A DNA stretch of 64,000 nt from the NCBI GenBank assembly GCA_028753945.1, contig JAPNXP010000013.1, positions 62,001-126,000 of the forward strand. The letters run 5' to 3'. Positions 10,882-24,392 of this stretch are shown here, piece by piece. Within the stretch, counting starts at the first letter, position 1; each line of letters begins with the position of its first letter. A model generated the notes under the pieces. That model did no database searches and had not been told where the DNA came from. It saw nothing but the letters and a program-made list of their open reading frames with translations. The translations under genes were made by a program, and so were the position numbers. The stretch is from Hexactinellida sp. DTS-2022 (lineage: Eukaryota; Porifera; Hexactinellida).

Positions 10882-11326
10882 CTCTCTCTCTCTTCACCTC
10901 TCCATTAGCACTCGAGTGGACATAAAATCTGCAACAACTCCCTCAACCCTATAACTCAACTATTAACTCAGCTACTCGGCTGGGGTGAAAAGGTACACAG
11001 GGTGTCCCAAGTGCGCTCACAGCTCAGCTCCATGGACAGGACCAGCTGCAACCCTGAGGGCCCCAGCCAACTTATATTTGTATTAATATTACTTTCTGTA
11101 TTGTAATTATTATAACATTAAACAATATACTAACCAATTTCTCAATCACTTAAGTTAGAACACGGGATAGTATACTAAATTAACTTAGGGAAAAGGGAAT
11201 AAATAGTACAGTAGAACGTAATTAGTCGGGTCAAACTATCTTTTGCCCAATGATCCAATTAAATATAAATTTATTTATAAGGTCTAGATGGAAATATGAA
11301 ATCCTATTTCTAATTAGTTTGTTAAA

Positions 11327-11499
11327 CAGTAGATGTTGGATATAAGCACACCGGTTATAAGAACGTAACGGATATAAGCACACTATGTTGGGAAACGGTT
11401 GCCATATACCCTGTATAATTTATGTCGGTTATAAGAACATGTCGGTTATATCACATTAAGTGCAGTTCCCGACGATGTGCTTATAACCGGCATCCACTG
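11327..11499 (-). mobile_element. Tigger/pogo-like MITE, copy A
   Basis: A 173-bp element with terminal inverted repeats of the form CAGTRGATGYYGGWTATAAG. It matches, in reverse orientation, the element at 13074-13403 minus that copy's insertion. It contains several internal copies of cggttataagaaca. TA flanks it on the right (11500-11501); the left flank is AA, so one copy of the TA duplication has probably mutated. The terminal CAGT and TA target are typical of Tc1/mariner/pogo-type MITEs. It lies just upstream of the visible NSMCE2 exon. Confidence 0.8.
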
Positions 11500-11512
11500 T
11501 ATTTGTTGCACA

Positions 11513-12235
11513 GATAAGAAAGTGGCTATTAGTTACTCTCAGTCGCTACCTGGGTCCTCCAAGATCCAGCTGGACGGCCTGCAGTCCGTGGACGCTTGTC
11601 TCTCGGGCCTGGCGGACCGGATAGAGACCGGCGCTCAGCTGCTGGGCGAGCTGGCCGGGGAGGTGGACAAGGGACACTTGGAGCAGCTCGGCTCCACCAA
11701 TGAATACCTGGCCAACCTGGACTCGGAAATAAGCCTAATGAAGGAGGCCCTAGCCTTCGTTATGGAGGAGGCTATTCCCAACTCGGAGCACAGCAGCAAG
11801 AGTGTGGACCTGTCTCGAGTCTACCAGAACAAGCTCGACGAGCTGAGTGCGGGGCCTAGCAGTACCCACCGGTACCTGACGAGCTTCCAGCAGTACCTGA
11901 ATGGGCCGCAGGGGGACAGGGAGGAACTGGACGCGGACATCCTGCTCGCGCAGGTCCAGGTCTCCACGATATGTCCCCTCACCCAGCAGCAGCTCAAGAG
12001 CCCCATGAGGAACTCTCGCTGCGGACACGTGTACTCGCGACTGGCGATCCTGGCGCACATCAAGGCTAAGAAGACCGGCGCGCAGTGCCCGGCCTCCGGC
12101 TGCTCGGGGGGCGTTGCGCCAGACGAGCTAGCGCCGGACAGAGAGATGGAGAGCAGGGTCCGCAGGGAGGGCAGCAGGGCCAGGAAGAGCGCGGGCAAGC
12201 CGGGGGAACAAGTCATGGTGTATAAGAAAAAGTAA
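11513..12235 (+). CDS. NSMCE2: SMC5/6 complex SUMO ligase NSE2/MMS21 (5' end missing)
   Basis: SP-RING SUMO E3 ligase of the SMC5-SMC6 DNA repair complex. The visible exon encodes about 240 residues: an N-terminal helical region that binds SMC5 (LDGLQSVDACLSGLADRIE and following), then a C-terminal SP-RING with CPLTQQQLKSPMRNSRCGHVY and CPASGC, giving the expected Cys/Cys-His/Cys-Cys zinc pattern. Length and layout match animal NSMCE2 (~250). There is no in-frame ATG near the N-terminus. An acceptor (tttgttgcacag) ends at 11512, so the exon probably starts there and a short first exon lies upstream, possibly beyond the MITE. Its stop is 83 bp from the convergent rhamnonate dehydratase stop. 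Confidence 0.85.
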   Translation, partial: DKKVAISYSQSLPGSSKIQLDGLQSVDACLSGLADRIETGAQLLGELAGEVDKGHLEQLGSTNEYLANLDSEISLMKEALAFVMEEAIPNSEHSSKSVDLSRVYQNKLDELSAGPSSTHRYLTSFQQYLNGPQGDREELDADILLAQVQVSTICPLTQQQLKSPMRNSRCGHVYSRLAILAHIKAKKTGAQCPASGCSGGVAPDELAPDREMESRVRREGSRARKSAGKPGEQVMVYKKK

Positions 12236-12318: not shown

Positions 12319-15300
12319 CTATAACGGGTAGATCGGCTTCAGGTCTCTGTCCGCTGCGAAGCTATCCAAATACTCTGCATTCCTTTTGAACTGGTACTCC
12401 ACTTGGTCCTGTGTCCTCGCATACGGCCTCATAAGTCCGGCTTTGTTGAGAGTGACGCCGAACCCCGCCCTCCCCGGATCCAGCTCGATGCGGCCCTGCT
12501 GGGGGAGCGGCTCGTCCGTGAACAGCCCGCTGAAGTAGGGCACGATCTGGTCCCCGTCCTTGCTCAGATTTATGTACTCCGCCATGGGGCAGTTGGAGAA
12601 AGCCATCTGCAGGTGGTATGCGTAGACCGAGCTGCCATGTGGTATCACTGGAATGTTGTAAGCAGAGGCCAACGAGACAACTCGCCTGGCTTCTGTGATG
12701 CCGCCCATCCAGGTAACGTCTGGCTGGATGACGTCACAGGCCGCAGGTGCGTCGAGCAGCTGTTTGAATCCGTATCGCGTGTATTCGTGCTCTCCCGTGG
12801 TCACCAGCAGTCCCTGCTGTCTACAATAAATTAATCCGCATAATAGCCACTAATTAGGTCAATAGAATTCGTATAATAGCCACTAATTAGGTCAATAGAA
12901 TCCGCATAATAGCCACTAATTAGGTCAATAGAATTCGTATGGCCCATAACCGGGTTGGGGAGAAAAAGTATAGACTTGGACTGAAGGCACATGTGCTCTG
13001 GACTTTATAAGCACATATCTTTACTTTTAATATATGGTTATTAGCCACTAATTAGATCAATAGAATTCGTATACAGTGGATGCCGGTTATAAGCACATTG
13101 TCGGGAACTGCACTTGATGCATGGGCGGCGCGGCCGCACCCCGCACGGGTGATTCACCCGCGGGCCCCTCAACCGATTACAAAGGGGGCCCCCTTGTTCA
13201 GGGGCCCTGGACAAAGGGGACTAGTAGGTCGATCACCCGGGGGCCCCCAAAAGCCGCGCCGCCTCTGACTTGATGTGCTTATAACCGACATGTTCTTATA
13301 ACCGAAATAGATTATACATGGTATATGGCAACCGTTTTCCAACATAGTGTGCTTATATCCGATATGTTCTTATAACCGGTGTGCTTATATCCGACATCTA
13401 CTGTATTAGCCACTAATTAGGTCAGTAGAATGCTACGTAACCTGCTGCGAGTACGGGCCCTGGCTGCTCTTCCGGCTCTGGCCAGACCAGTTACAATTCC
13501 CTCCTATGAGAACCAGACTGCGTTCGACTACGAGAGGGCGGCGAGCGAGCTGGCCTGGCACAGAAACAGGCTAATCACAATGCCCGAGAGGTTCGAGCCG
13601 ATCGGGACTCGCAGAGACATCTCCGACTACCAGCTCCCGCAGTTGAAGGGGCTGGCTAAGGGGGTGTGTCTCAGCAACTACCGGGGCTCCCCCATGCTGC
13701 AGAGCGCGCTAGACCTCGCCGTCCTCTCGCAGCTGCTGCAGGAGCTCCGGCCCAGGAGCGTCATAGAGCTGGGCACCTTCTGCGGGGCCTCCGCGCTCTG
13801 GCTGGACGACACGCTCCGCGGGCTCGGCGCGGACTGCCAGATCTACTCGCTGGACTGCGACGTGTCTCTCCGGGAGAGAACGGTCGACGAGTTGGTGTCC
13901 GAGCGGGTGACCTTCTTAGAGGGGGATGTTAGAAATGTGAAGAAGCTGTTCCCGCGAACCTTTTTGCTCGAGCTGCCGCGGCCTCTGCTGCTGATAGAGG
14001 ACGTGCACGTCGGTCTGAATGAGATCATAGCGCACTTCCACGAGTACCTGAAGCCAGGGGACTATTTGGTGTTCGAGAAGACCAACCCGATGCTGAATGA
14101 GAACTTCTACGTGGGAGAGAAGAACCCGCGACTCTATCGGGACAGCTCGGTGGTTGAGGTCAGCTACAAGCAGATGGGGAAGTGGAAACTGGAGTACATG
14201 CGGGACTTCTTCACGTCTCATGGGGACTTCTACGCAGTGGACACTTTCTTCACAGACCTGTTCGGTTACAACTGCAGCTCTCAAATGAACTCTATCTTCA
14301 GGCGAATGATATAACTCATATGTATGTATTGCATTATGAGTAGTGTCGAATCCGTAAGCTACCATCATATGTAAATCTAACTAATGAATGTCTCCCGTCC
14401 TCTTTAATTAGGTCATAGATATAAAGGTATGTCTAAGGCCAAGAAAGGAAAGGAGGTGCCTAAGGGCCCCGGGGCCGGCCAGCGGTGGGACGAACAGCTG
14501 ATCCAGGAGCAGCTGGACACGGACAGCTGGCGGCTGTGCGTCGCCGTGGTGGCGGGAGAGGACGCGGGGGCCGAGGAGCTGGTGTCTGCGCTCGGCCGAC
14601 AGATGAGCGCCCCGGGCGGGGAGTTCAAGCAACGGCGGCGGTTCTACTCGCTCTCGCTGCAGGAGGTGCTCAAGAAGGCGCTGGAGAGCGGGACGGGGGC
14701 GGTGAGCAAGAGCCAGGCCAGCAAGGGGAAGGGGAAAGGGGCCGCCTCCCCGGGGGTGGCTCTGGGCAGCAAGCCCCCGGGGGCCGAGGCTCTGGCAGAC
14801 CTAGTGAAGTCCCAGAGCGGCTCTGAGGAGGGGGTGGGGCCCGACACCCTGGCGAGAGCAATAAAGTTCTGCTTGCTGCTGCTGAGACAGGAGGACCTGG
14901 TCAGGCGACAGCAGGACGCCATCAGGGAGGGCAGGCCCGGGTCCGGGGCCGTCACGCCCAGCAAGAAGAAGGGGGCAAAGCAGGCCAAGGGGGCAAAGGG
15001 GCCGGGGCCCGAGGAAGGAATACCGATGCCCGCAAAGCCCGAGAGCACGATGCGTAAGCGAGGAGAGGAGGTGGGAGAGACCTCCTTCGTAGACGACGAG
15101 CCTGCCAACGGGCCCGAGGCGTACCTGCTGCTTAGCGGAATAAGGAGCGCTGACGTCATAGCAGAGATGGGGCGCGTGGGAGCAGCCCCCAGCTGTCTGC
15201 TGAGGGTGCAGACAGGGAGGGGGGAACACGGAGATTCGGAGGAGGAAGAGAGGGAGAAAAGGAATAAGACCGGTGAGCATTCTAGTGCATATTATAAGCT

Positions 15301-18300
15301 GTGAGTTATAAGTTTCCAGAGGCGAGTCTGAGAGAGCTCTGGAGAGCCGCGGAGCGGGTGCTGGAGACGGGCAGGGACTGCGGCGTGAGGGACACAGGGC
15401 TGCTGCTGGTCGAGTTCAGAGAGGACCCGCAGCAGGAGAGAGTGCAGGGACTGTTCGACCAGGTGGCGGCCCGCATATACCAGCTGGGGGACCAGAAGAG
15501 ACAACACAGACAGTACTTAGACTCTCTCTCCTTAGCAGACATAACCCGAGCGGCCAGGCGAGGTTAGTTATACTCCTGTGTGTTAATTTGTTATAAGCTA
15601 TAACCCGTGTCTTATAGAAGGTAAGGGAGACCAGCTGTACAGAGAGCAGCTGGGGGCTGTGCCCAACCAGTGCTGCTCCGTGGCTCTCCTGATGGAGTCT
15701 CTGCTGCAGCAGGTGTGCGTGAGTGACGTCACGCAGGTGCTGAGCGTAGGAGACATGGGACAGGAGACGAGTCCAGCGGTGCAAGAGAGTTTGAATAGAA
15801 TTAAACGGAGAGCTAACATTGGGGACACCAAAGGTAGGACTCTACAGGTACTAGTAGAGCGAGCTCTGATTAGCAACTTGTAGAGACAGAACCTGTTCCA
15901 GACAAGACACTGAGCTACCCGGTCATTTATGAGGGAGACACAATATGCGAGAGGGACAGTCTCCTCGAGCACTCTGGCACTGGGCTGGCCAAGCAAGGTG
16001 TTGAAAAGCGCATGCTGGACAACTTCAGAGTGTCTCACCTGCTGAAGAGGTTCCCACAGCTGGACCAAGACGAGCGGTACCGGACGGAGGCTCGCTACCA
16101 ACAGCTGCAGAGATTGGCGACCCAGTCCCACGCCCCCCTGCCGCCCGCCCAGCTCCAGTCCCTACTCGTCCTGCTATCTTTCGCGGAAATGATGGATTCT
16201 CGGTCTCCCCAGCTGTTCGATGACCCGTACCCCGACAAAGACAGACAGGAGTTTATCAATCGGTTGACACCTGCTATTGCCAACCTCCAGTGGTCAGAGC
16301 CATTGAGTCGTGACGTAATATCTCAGAGAGTCCAAGAGGCCCTGTCCCCTGAGCGGGGGTACCCCACCTGTCTCACCAGGTACCACAAGCAGAGCGACAA
16401 GCTCCTCATCCTGCTGCATCCGCTGCTCAGAGAGAGCGAGTGGAGCGCGCGGATTCTAACACCCACCGGGTTCTATCTGTTCCAGCGCTTCCTGCAGGCC
16501 CGCATCGGTCCGCTGGTGGAGCGCGTGTGCCAGCTGAACAGCTGCGACCGGGAGAAGCTGCTGGGCGCGCAGGACCTGACCCCCACCCCCTCGCAGGCGT
16601 CCCTCACGCAGCTCTCCGCCGTCTCCGGAGAGAGAGACAAGGGGAAGGAGGGGAGGGGCTCCTCTCACAGCAAGACGGTGGCTAGGAACTCTAGAACCTC
16701 CCGGCTTAAGAGCAGCTCCCGCGTGAGCAGCCCCTCGGTCGACAGGATCCGGGAGCGGGACGCCTCCGGCAGCCGGGAGGACCTGCTCGCGGCTCAGCGG
16801 TCCGACATAGAGCCCAAGCTGCTGCTGCTCTCGGGCTACGACGCGGGGGACGAGTGGTATGCGGGCAGCGGCACCGGCGCCAAGGCGGAGCTCAGCGACA
16901 GAGAGTTCCTCAGCGCCGATAAGCGGTCCTTCTACTCCAGTCCCCTCGACTCCGTCACGATGCAGTACTCCCACCAGTCCGGCCTATCCGCCGGCATCAG
17001 CCTACTCATCGACAGCGCGAGCAGCCCCGCCCCGGGCCCCAGGGATAGCGATAATGACGTCATAAAGCCAGCGACAGTGCCAGAGCCCCCTGCCCCTGTC
17101 CTCTACGCCACTTACAGGGTGCGTCTCCCCTCGGGAGTGCGGCTCTCCCTCAGCCCCTACGGCAAGCTGGGGGGTCTGCAGCTGCCGAGACAGATGGTGG
17201 AGGGAAGTGAGACCCGGGGGCGGGAGGAGGAACACGACAGGACCCCCTCCCCGCTGCCCCCTATGACGTCAGACTCCAAAGTGGGAGGCAAGGCTCGCGG
17301 CAAGAAGACGGACGACCAGCTGGCTGTGGAGCAGCATCGGCTGCTGACAGAGGAGAGGGAGCGCAAGAAGAGAGAGGTGGAGCGGGTGAGAGAGGAGAGG
17401 GTGCTGAAGTTCAGGAGGGAGAACAAGTATCAGACCCTGTTCGCCTCCACTGAGCACGGCCTGCAGGTCACCTGCTCCTCTAAGGTCAGACATGTTTAAT
17501 TGAATAGTATTAGGTACACTCATAAAGTACATATCTAAATATTATTAAGAGACTTGAGGCTTATTTCGAGCCTGAGACTCTCTCTCCGCATGAACCCGCG
17601 AGTGAGCAGCAGACCCTTGTTCACTGAGGCTATCCTGGCGCCCTTCATGGACAGCGTAGTCGGCAGCTTCCGTCGGACCTCCACGCCGGTCGTCCTCACC
17701 TCCAGGGACCGGTTAGCGGGGTCGCTGTCACAGATGAAGCGAGTCACGCAGTTGGCTTTGAATGGCCAGTCCAGCGCTTCGTCCTCTTCCCCCACCATTG
17801 TGTACAGGTCCACAGAGAGGAGGTCCCCCTCCAGCCACCAGCCGCACTTGAGCTGGTACCCAGCCACCGACAGGCACGGAGAGCTCGGCACCTTGAGGAT
17901 TATTGTTTGGAAATTCAAATTAGCGACCATGTTCGTGATCTCCCAGTTCAGCGTTCCTTTCCTGTCCAGTCTGTGGGATATCAAGTGCGTGTAGTTTTCT
18001 AGCGCCACCACCTTGTTGGTGAGGTACTCAATGTGTGTGTTCTGAGTCAGAATCTGGTCTTCCAGCGCCTTCATTCTCAGGTCCGTGTGTCCCTCTCTGG
18101 CCTCACTCAGGTGCGGCCTCAGTTCTCTCCTGGTTATCTCCCCAACGCCGCACCCGTACCTCTCGTACGGACAGCTCACCTCCCCCTCCTCGCACTCGCT
18201 CTGCAGATGCTCCCCCACGTGCTCCCGCCGCACGCGCTGTCCGCATCCGAGGTCGCACTCGACCAGCGCTTTGGCACACATGCCCGCGTGCTCGTTGAAC

Positions 18301-21300
18301 TCCCGCGCGACGCACGCCACAGAGCAGTGCTCACAGGTGATGGTTCGCAGCACGCACTCATTCATGTGAGCCTGCTCCTCTTCTCGAGGCATGACCGCGC
18401 CGCACCCGAGTTCACAGCTGACTTGTATATAGGGACAAGTCTGTAGGTGTGTCTCGCAGCCCTTGAGTTCCCCGGACCACTCACACCCGCTCTCGCTCAG
18501 GGGACATCTGCTCTTCAGTTCTGATACGGTTTTTCGCACTTGTGTGTTCGGTAGCGACTGCTCTTCCTTGTTCGTACAGCCCGCGCATACCAGTTCGCCA
18601 CTGGACACAGTGCACGCATCCCTGATAATCCCACTGCAGCGCGAGCATATGAGGAACAGCTCGTCTCTCTCCGAGAGGTTCTCCGTCAACAGGTCTCTCC
18701 TGTACCCCCCGGCCCCCTCCCCCGCCGTCACCCTAGTCAGTGTGTCTACGCTATCCGGAACATTAGCTACTGCCATATTGCATTGGAATAACGCTGTCCA
18801 GAATCCTTAAATATTAGCTCAGTTCGTGCGCATATCAAGTTTCAGTTAATTAATAATAGATTGGACTATGTCTGGTCTGTATTTAGATTTATCTCGAAAT
18901 AGAACTGCGTTATCAGCTCCAAATAGGTAGACCTGTCGAGTGACGTCACGCTCCGAGATGGCTCAGACGGATCTCTACGCGTGACACAGTGCTACCCCAA
19001 CGCCCCCTCTGCCACACAGCCCTGCGACAATCTGAGACTCTACCCCGCAGCTCTGGAGGCGAGCAGGTCCTATCTTGAGGACGGGACCGTCATCAGGCTC
19101 ATGAAGGACTCCAGTGCTCAGGTAGCGCCTGGCCTGCTAACTAGCTAACTAGCAACTAGCAACTAGCTAAGCTAACTAGCTAACTAGTTAATTAGCTCAC
19201 TAGCTATCTAACTAGCATAACTAGCTGAATAGCTAACTAGCTAACTAAGTAGCTCGTTGTTAATCAGTGTATGTGTAGCTGCTGTGGGCAGACGGGTCTA
19301 GCGCCCGGTCTCTGTCGGAGGGGGAGCTGGAGCTGCTGGCCAGAGAGACCCCCGATCTCGCGGCTCTCGCGACACACCCACAGGACAGCTGTCTCCTCTC
19401 CCTCGTTGGCGCTGCGGACACGGAGTTCTCTCTCGCAGACAAACAGTGGATGTACACAGACAGAGAGGGACAGAGACACGTGTACAGGTGGGCTGCGGAG
19501 AGTGAGAACGGAGACAGAGGCGAGAACGAGTCCGGGAGAGAGGGACAGGAGCTGGATGCCTCGACTGACAAGCTGTCTCTCAACAAGTTCTGCTCCTGCC
19601 TCTACAAAGAGCCTCTGCTTAAGTGCTGGCAGACGGACCCGGTCAGCGGGGAGGAGATGGTCACCCGGGAGGACCAGGTGCTGGCCGTGATTAGGAAGGA
19701 CGGCACGCGAATAGTACAGTTCTCGGATGGAACCAGAATAACTTCCAGCAACACGCAGCCCTCCATCCAGATCGAGTGCCCTGGCTATGCAAAAGTGCGC
19801 TTTTCCACACCTTCCAGCGGACAAGCCGTTATCACAATACTCGAAGGGAATGAGATCACAGCTGATAGGAAAGGGACTTATTCAGTATCGAGTGATGATG
19901 TCACCAGTATATTCTCACAAGAGGGCAGGTTGTCCCTAAGCCTGTCCTGTGCCAGCCAGGTGGAGCTGAGTCTGAGCGGCAGGGGAGACTGGATCAGTTA
20001 TAAGCACTTGCTCAGTGGGAGGGCACACGCAATCAACGAACAGTTTGAGACCTATGAGCAGAAAAAGGGAGGCGAGGAGTCAGGGGAGCTCGCTCCGAGA
20101 ATGTTTGTGCTGTCTCGGGACGGGTCTGGCCTGGAGCTGCTGAGCAGGGAATACGCGGGACAGGAGATAGCGCGCTGGAAGCAGAGAGAGGGAGTGCTAC
20201 TCCAGTCACATGCCCTCCCAGGGGACTCTAACGTAATCATACATTCCGCTGTAAGCCCCATAGAAACGCCCTCCCACGAGAGCTCACACCTCCCCTACAC
20301 AGAGGCCGACATAGTCCCTGTGCACCTGAGGACCCAGTACTACTTCCCTCTCGACCTGAACAGGTACAGGAGCAAGAGCGGGGTGTTCGGCGCCAGCGTG
20401 GGCCGCGGCCTCCAGATAGGGAGCTCGGGTGGAATGACGAACAAGAGACCGGTCCCTCGCGCTTTCAGGCGCAGAGAGCTGCTGGAACACAGACCGATAG
20501 GGCGGAGTGCGATAGAGACATTCGTGTCGAGTCTGGAGGGGGTGAATCGGTGGTGGGAGGAGATCAAGCGGGAGAAGGAGCTGTTCTCGCCTCTGGAGCT
20601 CCGCACGGACTCGGTGCTGGAGCAGACACAGGACCTGTTCAGTCTCTTCGCCTCGCACGCCGAGGATAACGACGTGGTCATACAGGAGTACAGAGACACC
20701 GTTCTAGCGCCGCCCCCTCCGGAGAAGGGACAGCCCCCGGCTGAGAGGCGGCCGGAGCGAGTAGCGACCGACAGAGCCGAGCTGGAGAACTTCCAGGCTA
20801 ACCTCGTAGCGCTTCGCGACAGAGACATCCCGGGCTACTTCGCGAGTGAGAGCGGACACCAGTTCCTCCTGGAGGAGCGGTCTGCGCCGCCCGACATGCG
20901 GCGTCTCACACAGGAGCTCCCCGTGGGCATGCGGCGGCCAGCAGCCTCCGAGGAGGCGCCCCCAGCCGCCCCCGACGGGAAATCGGAGAGACTGATCAAC
21001 CCCCGTCTCTCCGAACTATCGCAGGACACCGGGGCTCTGACCGCGGTTTATGCCAGCACCACTATCATTCTCCCTGAGCACTCCGGCTCCAGTGTCTCTC
21101 TCAGCCGGGACCGCCCCGGGAACCCCTCTCCCCACGCGACCGCCTCTGCCGACCCCAGTATAGCTACCACGGAGGACAGCCCCGCGCAATCCCCCTCTAA
21201 GCAGGTCCAGGGGGGGCCGGCAGCTCGCCCCCTAAAGCCGGCCACACTGGGCGTCGGCCCAGACACAGGCACGCCGATACCGGAGTATCTGTTCTACAAC

Positions 21301-24178
21301 GTGGCCGGCATACCCAGGACGGCCCCGGTTCGACTGCCCAACTCTCTCAAGGTGAGCTATCAAGATTCTTATTTATTCAATTCAATGTTATTATTCGTAG
21401 GTAGGCCTAATTAGTAAGGGACCATAGCTGTTAGAACTTTATCTTTCCAGGGATGTACTTGTCTACCAGCTTCTGGTAATACTCCTTGAGTTGTTGCATG
21501 TCCGGGAGCGCGGACTCGTCCTTGCTGTAGAGATCGAACTTCTGGAACAGCTTCACCCACTTCACCTTCTCTCTGTCCGCGTCGCTCAGCAGGTACTGGT
21601 AGTCGTCTCGGTGGTGGAGCGGGTAGAAGGAGTGGTACCGAATTATGAACAGTGCTTCTTCCGGTAGTGTCATGCCTGCGTGGTTCTTTAGCACTCTGTA
21701 CAGATACTCGTCGTGTCCCCATGACATCATCACATTCTCCAGTCCGCACTTCTCCGCGTACATGCCTAGCTTGGTGTTGTAACGGGGGTCCTTGGTGTCC
21801 GGGTTCTCGGGGAATCCCAGATGGCTGAACACAATTGACTCTTGGGGCTCGCACCCGACTGGGAAGGTGTCTCCCACGAGACTCCACTGCTCCATGCCAG
21901 GGTCCACTAGTCCCATTACCTTGCCCGTGTCATGGACCAGTCCCACCAAATGGAGCCAGTCAAGCTCTGGATAGCTGCGTCGCAACAGCTCTGCCGTTTG
22001 GAATGCGTGGTAGCTGTTGGGGAGCCCTACGAAGTCAGGGTCGCTCTCGTCTATCAAATTGTTGAGTTGCTCCAGGGCCTCCATCACCGTCATTTCAGCA
22101 TAAACGAACTTGGTCCACTTTTCTAGCATTGCTTTCCTGAACTCTACTGTCTGGTGCGCGTGCATCTTCCTGTATGTCTCTTTCACCAGTTCGGGAGCTG
22201 ACGCGGGGTCTTGGTCCATCTTTCTGAACTCAACCCTCTTATCGGGGATGATAGAATCAAGCAGGAGTTCCATAGAGAAGAGAAAATATGTGTTCTACGG
22301 CTTTCTGGTATTTATATGCATCCTAATATAGACTTGTCATGGTTCTGGTCACATTTCGTGTAGGAATGTTGGAATTCATTTTTATCGAAGTTACATGTTG
22401 GGTCATGGTTACTAACTCAGGAATTTGATAGTTGAAGTAAGTCTCCTTAGTTCTTAGCAATTAGCATGCTGTAAAAGTATGGCTAGTACTGTTGGTCCCC
22501 AACTATAAAGTGGAACTGGTAATTCATGGGAATTTTTGTCAGTGCCAGCTACGATTTGATTATCTTATTTGAACCTATTGTAAGTGTTATGTTTATTGTG
22601 CGTTTCTGACGTAGACGCTGAGACCCGGAGACAAGCAATGCGAGCAGCTAGACGAAACCAAGCGACAGACGAACACCGCCTCTCTCTCTATGCCGCTATG
22701 CAAGAGCCTGAAACAGGGGATCAGTCTCCTAGAGACAGAAGTAGACTTTGGAATCCTAAGGGAAGGTTGCACGTATTCTTACACTCTTCAAGTGAAGAAC
22801 ACCGGAACAACGAGCACTAGGTAACCTTTTCCCGAATACAAACTCTATCCCGCTACACTATCTCCCACAGGTTTAAAATAAAGCCGCCGCCCCCTTCCAC
22901 CGGCTTGAAGGCCTCCTACACGCCCCATCCGATCGCTGCTGGCATGAGCGCCTCCTTCCGAATAGAGATATACGCGATGCCCGTGGGCGTGACAGGGGAC
23001 AGGGGACAGGGACGGGTGCAACACAGTCTGGAGATAGTCTCAGAGGTCAACAGTCTACTGCTGCCTGTCACTGCCACTGTGCTAACGGAGACTAACTATG
23101 AGCAGGGGGGTGACCTCACCCTAGCCAAGGGCGTGTCTCTCGTACCCGCTAAAGCCACCTCTGCTACTGGCTCGCAGAGACCGTGAAGCTGTACGTTATG
23201 CCCATTGACACTTATTTACATTGTATTATTATTTACTGCTCGAATCATTACACTATTTATATTACGTCACGAGTATTAACAGCTTACCTGCATACCTCCC
23301 TGAGCTCCCTGTAGCCCTGGTAGTCGTCAGGTGGCAGAGCCTCCTCTATCCACTTGAACTTGAGAGCTGTCAGCTCCTTAGCCAGTCTTACGGCGTATGG
23401 CAGTGTCAGAGCCATGTAGCAGTCCAGCATCAGAGGGAAGTCTGGCCCCACCTATAAAGTCATGATATAGCTTTCTGCAGACTGAGCAGCTAGGTACCTG
23501 GTGCCTGGTCGCTCTGAGTTTGTACACGTTCTTCTTCAGGCCCTCGTCCCCCGCGCTGGGCCCGTAAGCACAGGGTATCTTAGCGCCTACGAACCCTAAC
23601 TTCTTCGCCTGCAGAGCGTCACACGTGGTGGCGTAGACCGGGAGGAAGGGCTTGGTCCTGCCCCCCAGCATCTGGTACACCGGCTCTCTCCGCAAGTGTC
23701 CCAGCAGGTCCCACAGAGCGAGGTCCACTGCGCTGATGGCTTGTAAGGGCAGGCCCTTTCTCCCGTAGTTGATGGTCGCTCTGTACATCTGATCCCACAT
23801 CAACTCGATGTCGGCCGGGTTCTGTCCCTCTATGAACCTGGACAAGTGGTTCTCCACAATGTAGCACCCCGGCGCGCCCCCTATACTCACCCCGACCCCT
23901 TTGTCTCCCTCTGTCGTCTCCACCTCCACGACAAGAGACCCCAGCGCGTTGATGCCCCAGGAAGTTCGATTCCCCTCGTACAACTCAAAGCAGGACATGG
24001 GGTTAGTGATTGGCATGTGGGGGGCGCTCCCAGATATCCAGTGGCCAGTTGGCACATCGTGACAGTCTCCCCCCTGTCCCACCGTGTCCCCCTTTTGGGC
24101 GTCTTTGATGTAGGCCCTCACCTCCTTGATCTTAGGAAACGCAGTGCATTTGCGGTCGGAATCGGATGGAAAAGACAT
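12319..24178 (-). CDS. L-rhamnonate dehydratase-like enolase-superfamily enzyme (three exons, giant gene-bearing intron)
   Basis: Mandelate-racemase/enolase-superfamily sugar-acid dehydratase, closest by eye to bacterial RhmD, which dehydrates L-rhamnonate to 2-keto-3-deoxy-L-rhamnonate. Exons on the minus strand: 24178-23498, 23451-23288 and 12820-12319. Joined they give 448 residues in one frame with GT-AG borders. Predicted Mg ligands D237, E263 and E292 (next to H293), the D316-H343 dyad (IQPD, IPHGSS), and an N-terminal GGDCHDVPTGHWISG like RhmD are all present. The 46-bp first intron is ordinary. The second is 10,467 bp and contains a methyltransferase gene and all of SPAG17. The joined text ELREVC/RQQGLLVTTGEH continues across the junction as in RhmD. 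Animals usually have the related ENOSF1, so horizontal acquisition is possible. Confidence 0.88.
12836..12940. repeat. 33-bp tandem repeat (3 copies) in the dehydratase intron
   Basis: Three copies of a 33-bp unit (ataatagccactaattagg, then tcaatagaattcg or close variants) stand head to tail. Further copies occur at about 13038-13071 and 13406-13430. The MITE at 13074-13403 has split one of them. Confidence 0.9.
13074..13403 (+). mobile_element. Tigger/pogo-like MITE, copy B
   Basis: Second copy of the element at 11327-11499, in the opposite orientation. Its termini are CAGTGGATGCCGGTTATAAG and its inverted partner ending CATCTACTG. It is flanked by a TA duplication (13072-13073 and 13404-13405). 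Removing it restores a copy of the 33-bp tandem repeat, which shows the insertion site. It is interrupted by a GC-rich element at 13120-13267. Confidence 0.88.
13120..13267. mobile_element. GC-rich hAT-like MITE inserted in the pogo-like MITE
   Basis: A 148-bp, very GC-rich element with inverted termini CATGGGCGGCGCGGC and CAGAGGCGGCGCGGC (reading inward from each end). It is flanked by perfect 8-bp duplications ACTTGATG (13112-13119 and 13268-13275). An 8-bp duplication and CAGRGGCGG-like tips are typical of hAT transposons. The sister MITE at 11327-11499 lacks this insertion and gives the empty site. Confidence 0.88.
13430..14314 (+). CDS. CmcI/RMNT-type SAM-dependent methyltransferase-like protein
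   Basis: A 294-residue single-exon protein resembling the cephalosporin hydroxylase/rhamnosyl O-methyltransferase (CmcI) family. A Rossmann glycine motif is at residues 111-121 (VIELGTFCGAS), an acidic ribose-binding strand follows (IYSLDCDVS, 138-146), and a third strand is LLLIEDVHVGLNEI (about 187-200). The N-terminus (MLRNLLRVRALAALPALARP) could be a mitochondrial targeting peptide. The gene lies entirely inside the 10.5-kb intron of the dehydratase, on the opposite strand. Its ATG directly abuts the last copy of the 33-bp repeat, so its 5' leader is repeat-derived. Substrate is unknown. This family is best known from bacteria, so its origin deserves a check. Confidence 0.75.
   Translation: MLRNLLRVRALAALPALARPVTIPSYENQTAFDYERAASELAWHRNRLITMPERFEPIGTRRDISDYQLPQLKGLAKGVCLSNYRGSPMLQSALDLAVLSQLLQELRPRSVIELGTFCGASALWLDDTLRGLGADCQIYSLDCDVSLRERTVDELVSERVTFLEGDVRNVKKLFPRTFLLELPRPLLLIEDVHVGLNEIIAHFHEYLKPGDYLVFEKTNPMLNENFYVGEKNPRLYRDSSVVEVSYKQMGKWKLEYMRDFFTSHGDFYAVDTFFTDLFGYNCSSQMNSIFRRMI
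14429..23186 (+). CDS. SPAG17: Sperm-associated antigen 17, ciliary central-pair protein (8 exons)
   Basis: Orthologue of SPAG17/PF6, a scaffold of the C1a projection of the ciliary central apparatus, required for motile cilia. Exons I could join in frame: 14429-15272, 15320-15562, 15618-15833, 15884-17484, 18927-19121, 19279-21351, 22615-22820 and 22871-23186, giving 1,897 residues (human about 2,220). Family landmarks are the N-terminal WDEQLIQEQLDTDSWRLCVA block, MRKRGEEVGETSFVDDEP, and the C-terminal ASH-like module (VDFGILREGCTYSYTLQVKN and, in the next exon, KASYTPHPIAAGMSA). Ordinary introns are 47-157 bp. Introns 4 (1,442 bp) and 6 (1,263 bp) each hold a complete antisense gene. One donor, GTCAGA at 17485, is weak, but the frame and family text continue correctly. 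The whole gene sits in the dehydratase intron. Confidence 0.92.
17535..18776 (-). CDS. TRAF-family protein (RING-like, TRAF zinc fingers, MATH)
   Basis: A 413-residue single-exon TRAF-like signalling adaptor. It has a RING-like N-terminus (about 44-67, CSRCSGIIRDACTVSSG then ELVCAGC) that is too Cys/His-poor for a full RING, TRAF-type zinc fingers (about 90-225; repeated CP-x-SGCEW, CELGCG and CDLGCG units), a short coiled coil (about 232-262, MKALEDQILTQNTHIEYLTN) and a C-terminal MATH domain (about 270-400, NWEITNM...). It lies wholly inside SPAG17 intron 4 in the antisense direction, 50 bp from the upstream exon and 150 bp from the downstream exon. Receptor partners cannot be predicted; the degenerate RING suggests weak or no ubiquitin-ligase activity. 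Confidence 0.85.
   Translation of the reverse strand: MAVANVPDSVDTLTRVTAGEGAGGYRRDLLTENLSERDELFLICSRCSGIIRDACTVSSGELVCAGCTNKEEQSLPNTQVRKTVSELKSRCPLSESGCEWSGELKGCETHLQTCPYIQVSCELGCGAVMPREEEQAHMNECVLRTITCEHCSVACVAREFNEHAGMCAKALVECDLGCGQRVRREHVGEHLQSECEEGEVSCPYERYGCGVGEITRRELRPHLSEAREGHTDLRMKALEDQILTQNTHIEYLTNKVVALENYTHLISHRLDRKGTLNWEITNMVANLNFQTIILKVPSSPCLSVAGYQLKCGWWLEGDLLSVDLYTMVGEEDEALDWPFKANCVTRFICDSDPANRSLEVRTTGVEVRRKLPTTLSMKGARIASVNKGLLLTRGFMRRESLRLEISLKSLNNI
19135..19260. repeat. CTAG-rich simple repeat in a SPAG17 intron
   Basis: A degenerate run of ctagctaa/ctagcaa words fills most of the 157-bp intron 5 of SPAG17. The words are nearly self-complementary, so the strand could fold extensively. 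Confidence 0.85.
21431..22273 (-). CDS. MIOX: myo-Inositol oxygenase
   Basis: A 280-residue single-exon enzyme that oxidises myo-inositol to D-glucuronate, the first step of inositol catabolism. The HD-fold di-iron ligands are all present: H89 (NSYHAF), H114 and D115 (GLVHDTGK), H187 (WGHDEY), H214 (IRYHSF) and D247 (KFDLYSK). The N-terminal MHAHQTVEF motif and the C-terminal YIPGKIKF also match animal MIOX, and the length is typical (~285). It is complete and lies antisense inside SPAG17 intron 6, 79 bp from the upstream host exon. The outermost host gene of this nest is also a carbohydrate-acid enzyme on the same strand, which may be coincidence. Confidence 0.95.
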   Translation of the reverse strand: MELLLDSIIPDKRVEFRKMDQDPASAPELVKETYRKMHAHQTVEFRKAMLEKWTKFVYAEMTVMEALEQLNNLIDESDPDFVGLPNSYHAFQTAELLRRSYPELDWLHLVGLVHDTGKVMGLVDPGMEQWSLVGDTFPVGCEPQESIVFSHLGFPENPDTKDPRYNTKLGMYAEKCGLENVMMSWGHDEYLYRVLKNHAGMTLPEEALFIIRYHSFYPLHHRDDYQYLLSDADREKVKWVKLFQKFDLYSKDESALPDMQQLKEYYQKLVDKYIPGKIKF

Positions 24179-24392
24179 TTCTCACTATTGTCTAAGATTC
24201 ATGATTAGACCGGTTAGAAATAATCTCTATAGCATGCTCCTTTCTTGTGGGTTTTTAGAAAAGGGTCATGAGCCAATCAATTAATAATTTGATTTCATAA
24301 GAATGTACATACATGATATAACTCAGTATAGTCCCAAGAATTTATAACAAATGATATATACTAATCAGTGTACAGCCTACATATACTATATA

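Follow-up and report, generated by a model that had tools for sequence, protein, structure and literature searches.

In the 64,000-nt stretch of the Hexactinellida sp. DTS-2022 genome that we analyzed (contig JAPNXP010000013.1, positions 62,001 to 126,000; hereafter the window), a predicted dehydratase gene of three exons holds four other genes in its second intron, and two of these lie in turn within introns of another of the four (Table 1). The three dehydratase exons join into one frame of 448 codons, with GT-AG at both introns. An earlier note, made from the sequence alone, had described this join as yielding an enolase-superfamily enzyme, and its coordinates, frame and product were exact; Pfam searches of the joined protein identified the expected MR_MLE domains at the N-terminus (PF02746, E-value 3.3e-11) and the C-terminus (PF13378, 3.5e-45). 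Among solved L-rhamnonate dehydratases, 2oz3 matched the joined protein nearly full length (residues 13-417, E-value 2.8e-128) and 3fxg matched residues 13-410 (5.7e-122). By sequence the host is an L-rhamnonate dehydratase-type gene of the enolase superfamily, with predicted activity on L-rhamnonate.

Table 1. Features of the dehydratase locus and its neighborhood, in window positions
Feature	Position	Strand	Remarks
Zf-Nse (NSE2-like) open frame	11477..12235	+	Convergent with the dehydratase; in the duplicated block; Pfam zf-Nse E-value 5.9e-15; degraded on C7
Dehydratase exon 3	12319..12820	-	502 nt including the stop; E292, D316 and H343 here
Dehydratase intron 2	12821..23287	-	10,467 bp, GT-AG; four other genes within
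Repeat patch	13071..13420	.	Lies between exon 3 of the dehydratase and the methyltransferase; inverted counterparts beyond that exon, at 11310-11502
CmcI-like methyltransferase gene	13430..14314	+	Single open frame, 294 aa; in the dehydratase intron, antisense to the host; Pfam PF04989 E-value 6.2e-9
SPAG17 gene	14429..23186	+	8 exons, 1,897 aa; in the dehydratase intron, antisense to the host
SPAG17 exons	14429-15272, 15320-15562, 15618-15833, 15884-17484, 18927-19121, 19279-21351, 22615-22820, 22871-23186	+	In frame
TRAF-type zinc-finger gene	17535..18776	-	Single open frame, 413 aa; in SPAG17 intron 4 (17485-18926)
MIOX (myo-inositol oxygenase) gene	21431..22273	-	Single open frame, 280 aa; in SPAG17 intron 6 (21352-22614)
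Dehydratase exon 2	23288..23451	-	164 nt; D237 and E263 here
Dehydratase intron 1	23452..23497	-	46 bp, GT-AG; 46 bp in the C7 copy too
Dehydratase exon 1	23498..24178	-	681 nt; MR_MLE_N/C Pfam domains on the joined protein; counterpart exon in the C7 paralogue

A search of ~5.8 billion proteins, in which 7,999 candidates were scored and 5,480 gave matches, found homologs of the joined dehydratase that are continuous chains in many invertebrates, a choanoflagellate and an alga among the best 120 of the 5,480 matches. When the window protein was aligned with 10 hand-picked named homologs (8 animals, 1 choanoflagellate and 1 alga; 60-67% identity), the sequence around codon 282, where exons 2 and 3 meet, showed a gap of at most one residue, in 4 of the 10 homolog rows. 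In the same alignment D237, E263, E292, D316 and H343, which we take to be the metal ligands and Asp-His dyad of the enolase superfamily, were invariant in all 11 sequences. It had also been proposed that the far exon is required, as D237 and E263 lie on one side of the large intron and the other three on the other side; neither half alone has all five. The two halves might instead be separate genes, or be trans-spliced from two transcripts, given that exon 3 by itself has a 161-aa open frame starting at a GTG codon and that a compact animal genome is known to use trans-spliced leaders (PMC8527503). We consider this extremely unlikely: the active site is complete on neither half, and a second copy of the gene (described below) has identical splice positions around a 4-kb intron, for which cis-splicing suffices.

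Each of the four guest coding regions lies wholly within a single intron, and together they make up 83% of dehydratase intron 2. The earlier placement of a methyltransferase gene and an eight-exon SPAG17 gene inside this intron was borne out for both coding regions, as was that of a complete antisense gene in each of two SPAG17 introns: the TRAF-type gene lies in intron 4 and the MIOX gene in intron 6, both antisense to SPAG17 and thus on the host strand. At the level of coding regions the nesting is therefore double, with SPAG17 itself inside the dehydratase intron. The genome is compact, and of the nine introns modelled, six measure only 46-157 bp. The family E-values (e.g., 1.8e-103 for MIOX and 3.5e-45 for the dehydratase C-terminal domain) exclude a chance origin of these predicted genes, and we regard the nested gene models as confirmed at the sequence level, while splicing across them is something we infer. 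The methyltransferase and SPAG17 genes run head to tail on the same strand, 114 bp apart (14315-14428), and are possibly co-transcribed. At the other end of the intron, 101 bp separate the stop codon of SPAG17 from the host donor; due to this the 3' end of the SPAG17 transcript may overlap host exon 2.

SPAG17 is a cilium gene, and its model is GT-AG and in frame at all seven introns. It matched a solved SPAG17 (PDB 9ijj) with an E-value of 4.8e-69, the sole PDB sequence at an E-value of 0.001 or less. Local phmmer matches were colinear, covering residues 8-359, 836-1189, 1298-1490 (weak) and 1700-1871, and crossed five of the seven exon junctions (residues 281, 968, 1033, 1724 and 1793; those at 362 and 434 were not crossed). 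Both junctions whose introns hold guests are among the five, 968 being crossed by the match to residues 836-1189 and 1724 by that to residues 1700-1871; a C-terminal PapD-like domain was also identified at residues 1763-1861 (PF14874, E-value 1.3e-6). In a global alignment with four vertebrate SPAG17 proteins (24-27% identity), conserved columns flanked every junction as judged by eye. The five guest-free introns are 47, 55, 50, 157 and 50 bp long, indicating that the two guest-holding ones (1,442 and 1,263 bp) are long mainly through the genes that they hold. No second SPAG17 copy was detected among the five candidates scored in the 112.4-Mb genome, and our literature search found no paper joining nested genes with SPAG17.

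Family membership was similarly clear for MIOX, whose domain (Pfam PF05153) matched residues 29-280 of 280 with the E-value given above. No second MIOX copy was detected in the 112.4-Mb genome, where one candidate was scored. The protein had database relatives of up to 90% identity, including six at 73-90%; the largest contig was 0.69-2.1 Mb for five of the six and 28.8 kb for the other, and with such contigs related genomes probably exist. The TRAF-type gene scored 58.5 bits against Pfam zf-TRAF (E-value 1.1e-15; cut-off 27), and its MATH domain scored 22.2 bits, under the cut-off of 27.4. This gene had at least 105 further matches in the genome, some being fragments of a single gene (101 of 181 candidates were scored), and 8 of the 105 match rows contained internal stops. 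The matches are often clustered, e.g., on C4, C12 and C16. The methyltransferase had five genome relatives, on C1, C16 and C18 (33-45% identity), each of which matched in two pieces meeting at about residues 157-182, with a stop in one piece. The nested gene is in one piece, as if an intron had been lost or the gene were a retrocopy. Frames identified in the genome included Tudor/DEAD, MRP-S31, NIPSNAP, BTB-BACK and many TRAF-type, a repertoire that points to an animal.

The same genome contains a second intact dehydratase copy on contig C7, at C7:3057962-3063404 (protein match 3057968-3063404). Its exons have the same lengths as those of the window copy (681, 164 and 502 nt), its splice positions are identical, and it too keeps all five active-site residues. 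Intron 1 of the C7 copy is 46 bp long with three differences from its window counterpart. Intron 2, however, is 4,050 bp (junction 3062514 to 3058463), AT-rich (35% GC) and repeat-rich, and no recognizable gene was found in it: none of its nine stop-to-stop frames of at least 60 aa (the longest 109 aa, and two of the nine reaching into exon sequence) had a Pfam match at an E-value of 0.001 or less, a check that misses genes whose exons are shorter or whose products belong to no Pfam family. A ~400-bp repeat in this intron (C7:3061849-3062372) occurs at dozens of places among the matches listed, often as inverted pairs ~665 bp apart. The window has a GC content of 52%, compared to 37.7% for 24 kb of C7.

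We read the C7 copy as a dispersed duplicate. That it is an allele of the window locus was rejected, as homology between the two ends at ~11262 and ~24257, and nothing else in the 24 kb of C7 matched at an E-value of 1e-5 apart from a short repeat. Whereas the NSE2-like frame next to the dehydratase is open in the window, its C7 counterpart is disrupted by a stop and by several deletions, and because of this degradation the C7 copy is probably the daughter.

The coding regions of the two dehydratases align over 1,347 bases without gaps and differ by 28 synonymous and 24 non-synonymous changes. Exons 1-2 had a synonymous divergence (dS) of 0.097 and a dN/dS of 0.25, and exon 3 had values of 0.099 and 0.226, so that both halves look equally old and similarly constrained, as continued splicing of the window copy across the nest would predict. 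A comparison of two copies cannot assign this constraint to the window branch or the C7 branch. These values also bear on the possibility that the nest is an assembly artifact, created by a misjoin of exons 1-2 to exon 3 of the window copy around the SPAG17 block. Although a false join might go unnoticed among the short repeats, tandem and inverted, that separate exon 3 from the methyltransferase, the equal dS of the two halves from C7 speaks against a misjoin, as does homology to C7 that enters the intron from both halves, and the 112.4-Mb assembly is in only 18 contigs; we judge an artifact very unlikely.

The polyadenylation-like motifs within the nest raise a different concern. On the host strand, intron 2 contains AATAAA at 21377 and 22597 and ATTAAA at 17500, 14408 and 13031, of which AATAAA-21377 is 54 bases past the MIOX stop and ATTAAA-17500 is 35 bases past the TRAF stop; any of them could end the host transcript early. 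Among the six genes scanned, one of the two motifs was present within 300 bases after the stop for the TRAF-type gene (ATTAAA) and MIOX (AATAAA) and absent for SPAG17, the methyltransferase, the dehydratase and the NSE2-like frame, and since it was absent after four of the six its absence says little about where transcripts end. On the strength of such motifs, and of the intact copy on C7, the window dehydratase might be a recently broken copy whose transcript ends early in the gene-filled intron, leaving C7 alone to make the enzyme. The low dN/dS could in that case come mostly from the C7 branch. Against this, the window copy has three open exons with intact splice sites, it retains the five active-site residues, and dN/dS is similarly low in both halves, so we hold a broken copy to be improbable, if somewhat less so than a misassembly.

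Taken together, this is very probably an ordinary nuclear nest of genes, with two guest levels in one host and host intron 2 removed by cis-splicing, in an animal whose genome is compact. We infer splicing across the 10.5-kb intron because the exons join in frame at GT-AG sites, homologs are continuous over the junctions, the C7 copy has identical splice positions, and dN/dS is low in both halves. The dehydratase would accordingly be a working gene, and each gene of the nest would be transcribed from its own promoter. The processing signals of SPAG17 and the methyltransferase should leave the host transcript unaffected, both genes being antisense to the host. That transcript would have to pass the MIOX and TRAF polyadenylation-like motifs and be spliced across them; the usual suppression of intronic polyadenylation may let it escape cutting.

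The boundaries of the nest are also visible by comparison with C7. Homology runs from ~11262 to the acceptor-side end of the intron (~12872, with tandem units to 12940) and again from 23229 to 24257; within intron 2 it is clear at the two ends only, over 59 bp on the donor side and 52 bp on the acceptor side. The segment that differs between the two copies, ~12940-23228, is thus the nest, with the single exception of a 48-bp match (window 22558-22605 to C7:3060249-3060296) that scored 50.9 bits compared to a maximum of 34.6 in 500 shuffles. If this match were a true relic of SPAG17 in the C7 intron, the nest would be older than the duplication. We rejected it as such and read it as a shared repeat, as it borders on a family of short repeats with at least 68 further matches and, judged by eye, continues into that family; this reading is a judgment, and the match was left out of dating the nest. 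Genome searches with either side of the match returned only the query and missed the match itself, so that their sensitivity is too low for a decision.

On the acceptor side of intron 2 there are five copies of a 42-nt tandem unit between 12833 and 13437. The last of them (13396-13437) overlaps the methyltransferase ATG, placing the guest directly against host-intron-like sequence. The arms of the inverted repeat on either side of exon 3 (11310-11502 and 13071-13420) are complementary over 141 nt at 91% and 49 nt at 96%. The copy at 11310-11502 has no counterpart on C7, where the sequences matching 11324 and 11508 are five bases apart.

Two histories could account for a nest in one copy of the host and not in the other. 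We prefer the reading in which the nest predates the duplication and was then lost from the daughter: SPAG17 and MIOX are seemingly single-copy, so that later entry would need a cut-and-paste move. It is less likely, though still worth stating, that the four-gene block, already two levels deep, moved as a unit into a live dehydratase intron after a recent duplication. If this happened, the locus would record a capture of a three-level nest that can be dated and that comes with its own control, namely a sister host without the block in the same genome.

How unusual such nesting is can be judged from other animals. The ctenophore Hormiphora californensis has 2,357 nested genes, of which 484 are doubly nested (Schultz et al. 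2021, PMC8527503), and the legend to Figure 4A of that paper describes one host with four nested genes, two of them doubly nested. The glass sponge locus resembles these in having genes in the introns of intron-nested genes, and equals the figured locus in its guest count. The Hormiphora annotation rests on Iso-Seq, whereas the nest here is known from genomic sequence; here a second host copy without recognizable guests is present in the same genome. When 26 bases of the published Hormiphora leader were searched for in the genome analyzed here, no exact match was found, which fits a different species. The glass sponge Aphrocallistes vastus likewise has a compact genome (~80 Mb) with nested genes (2,432, as well as 12,409 single-exon transcripts; PMC10282587), although the account of it, in the portion available, gave no doubly nested locus. 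In Caenorhabditis elegans, ceh-10 is nested in polq-1 on the opposite strand (PMC12274878), which as a protein-coding guest in the intron of an opposite-strand host is like the case here; the C. elegans nest is of a single level, and its effect on the host was tested experimentally. Host-guest effects of nested genes are discussed in that paper and in PMC8467205.

Of the first reading of this locus, then, the nested structure stands, carried by homology, the C7 intron positions and low dN/dS; the view that nesting this deep is rare finds no support, since a single animal genome has 484 doubly nested genes and a figure legend describes a nest of the same topology (PMC8527503). The locus is a well-supported new example of documented double nesting, with an unusually good internal control. 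Nested genes pose the question of how a host transcript gets spliced, and escapes early polyadenylation, with genes in its introns. Here two host copies ~10% apart at silent sites differ in having an intron that is 83% guest coding sequence in one and a 4-kb repeat-rich intron in the other, and the expression and splicing of both copies in the same cells would directly measure the cost of the nest.
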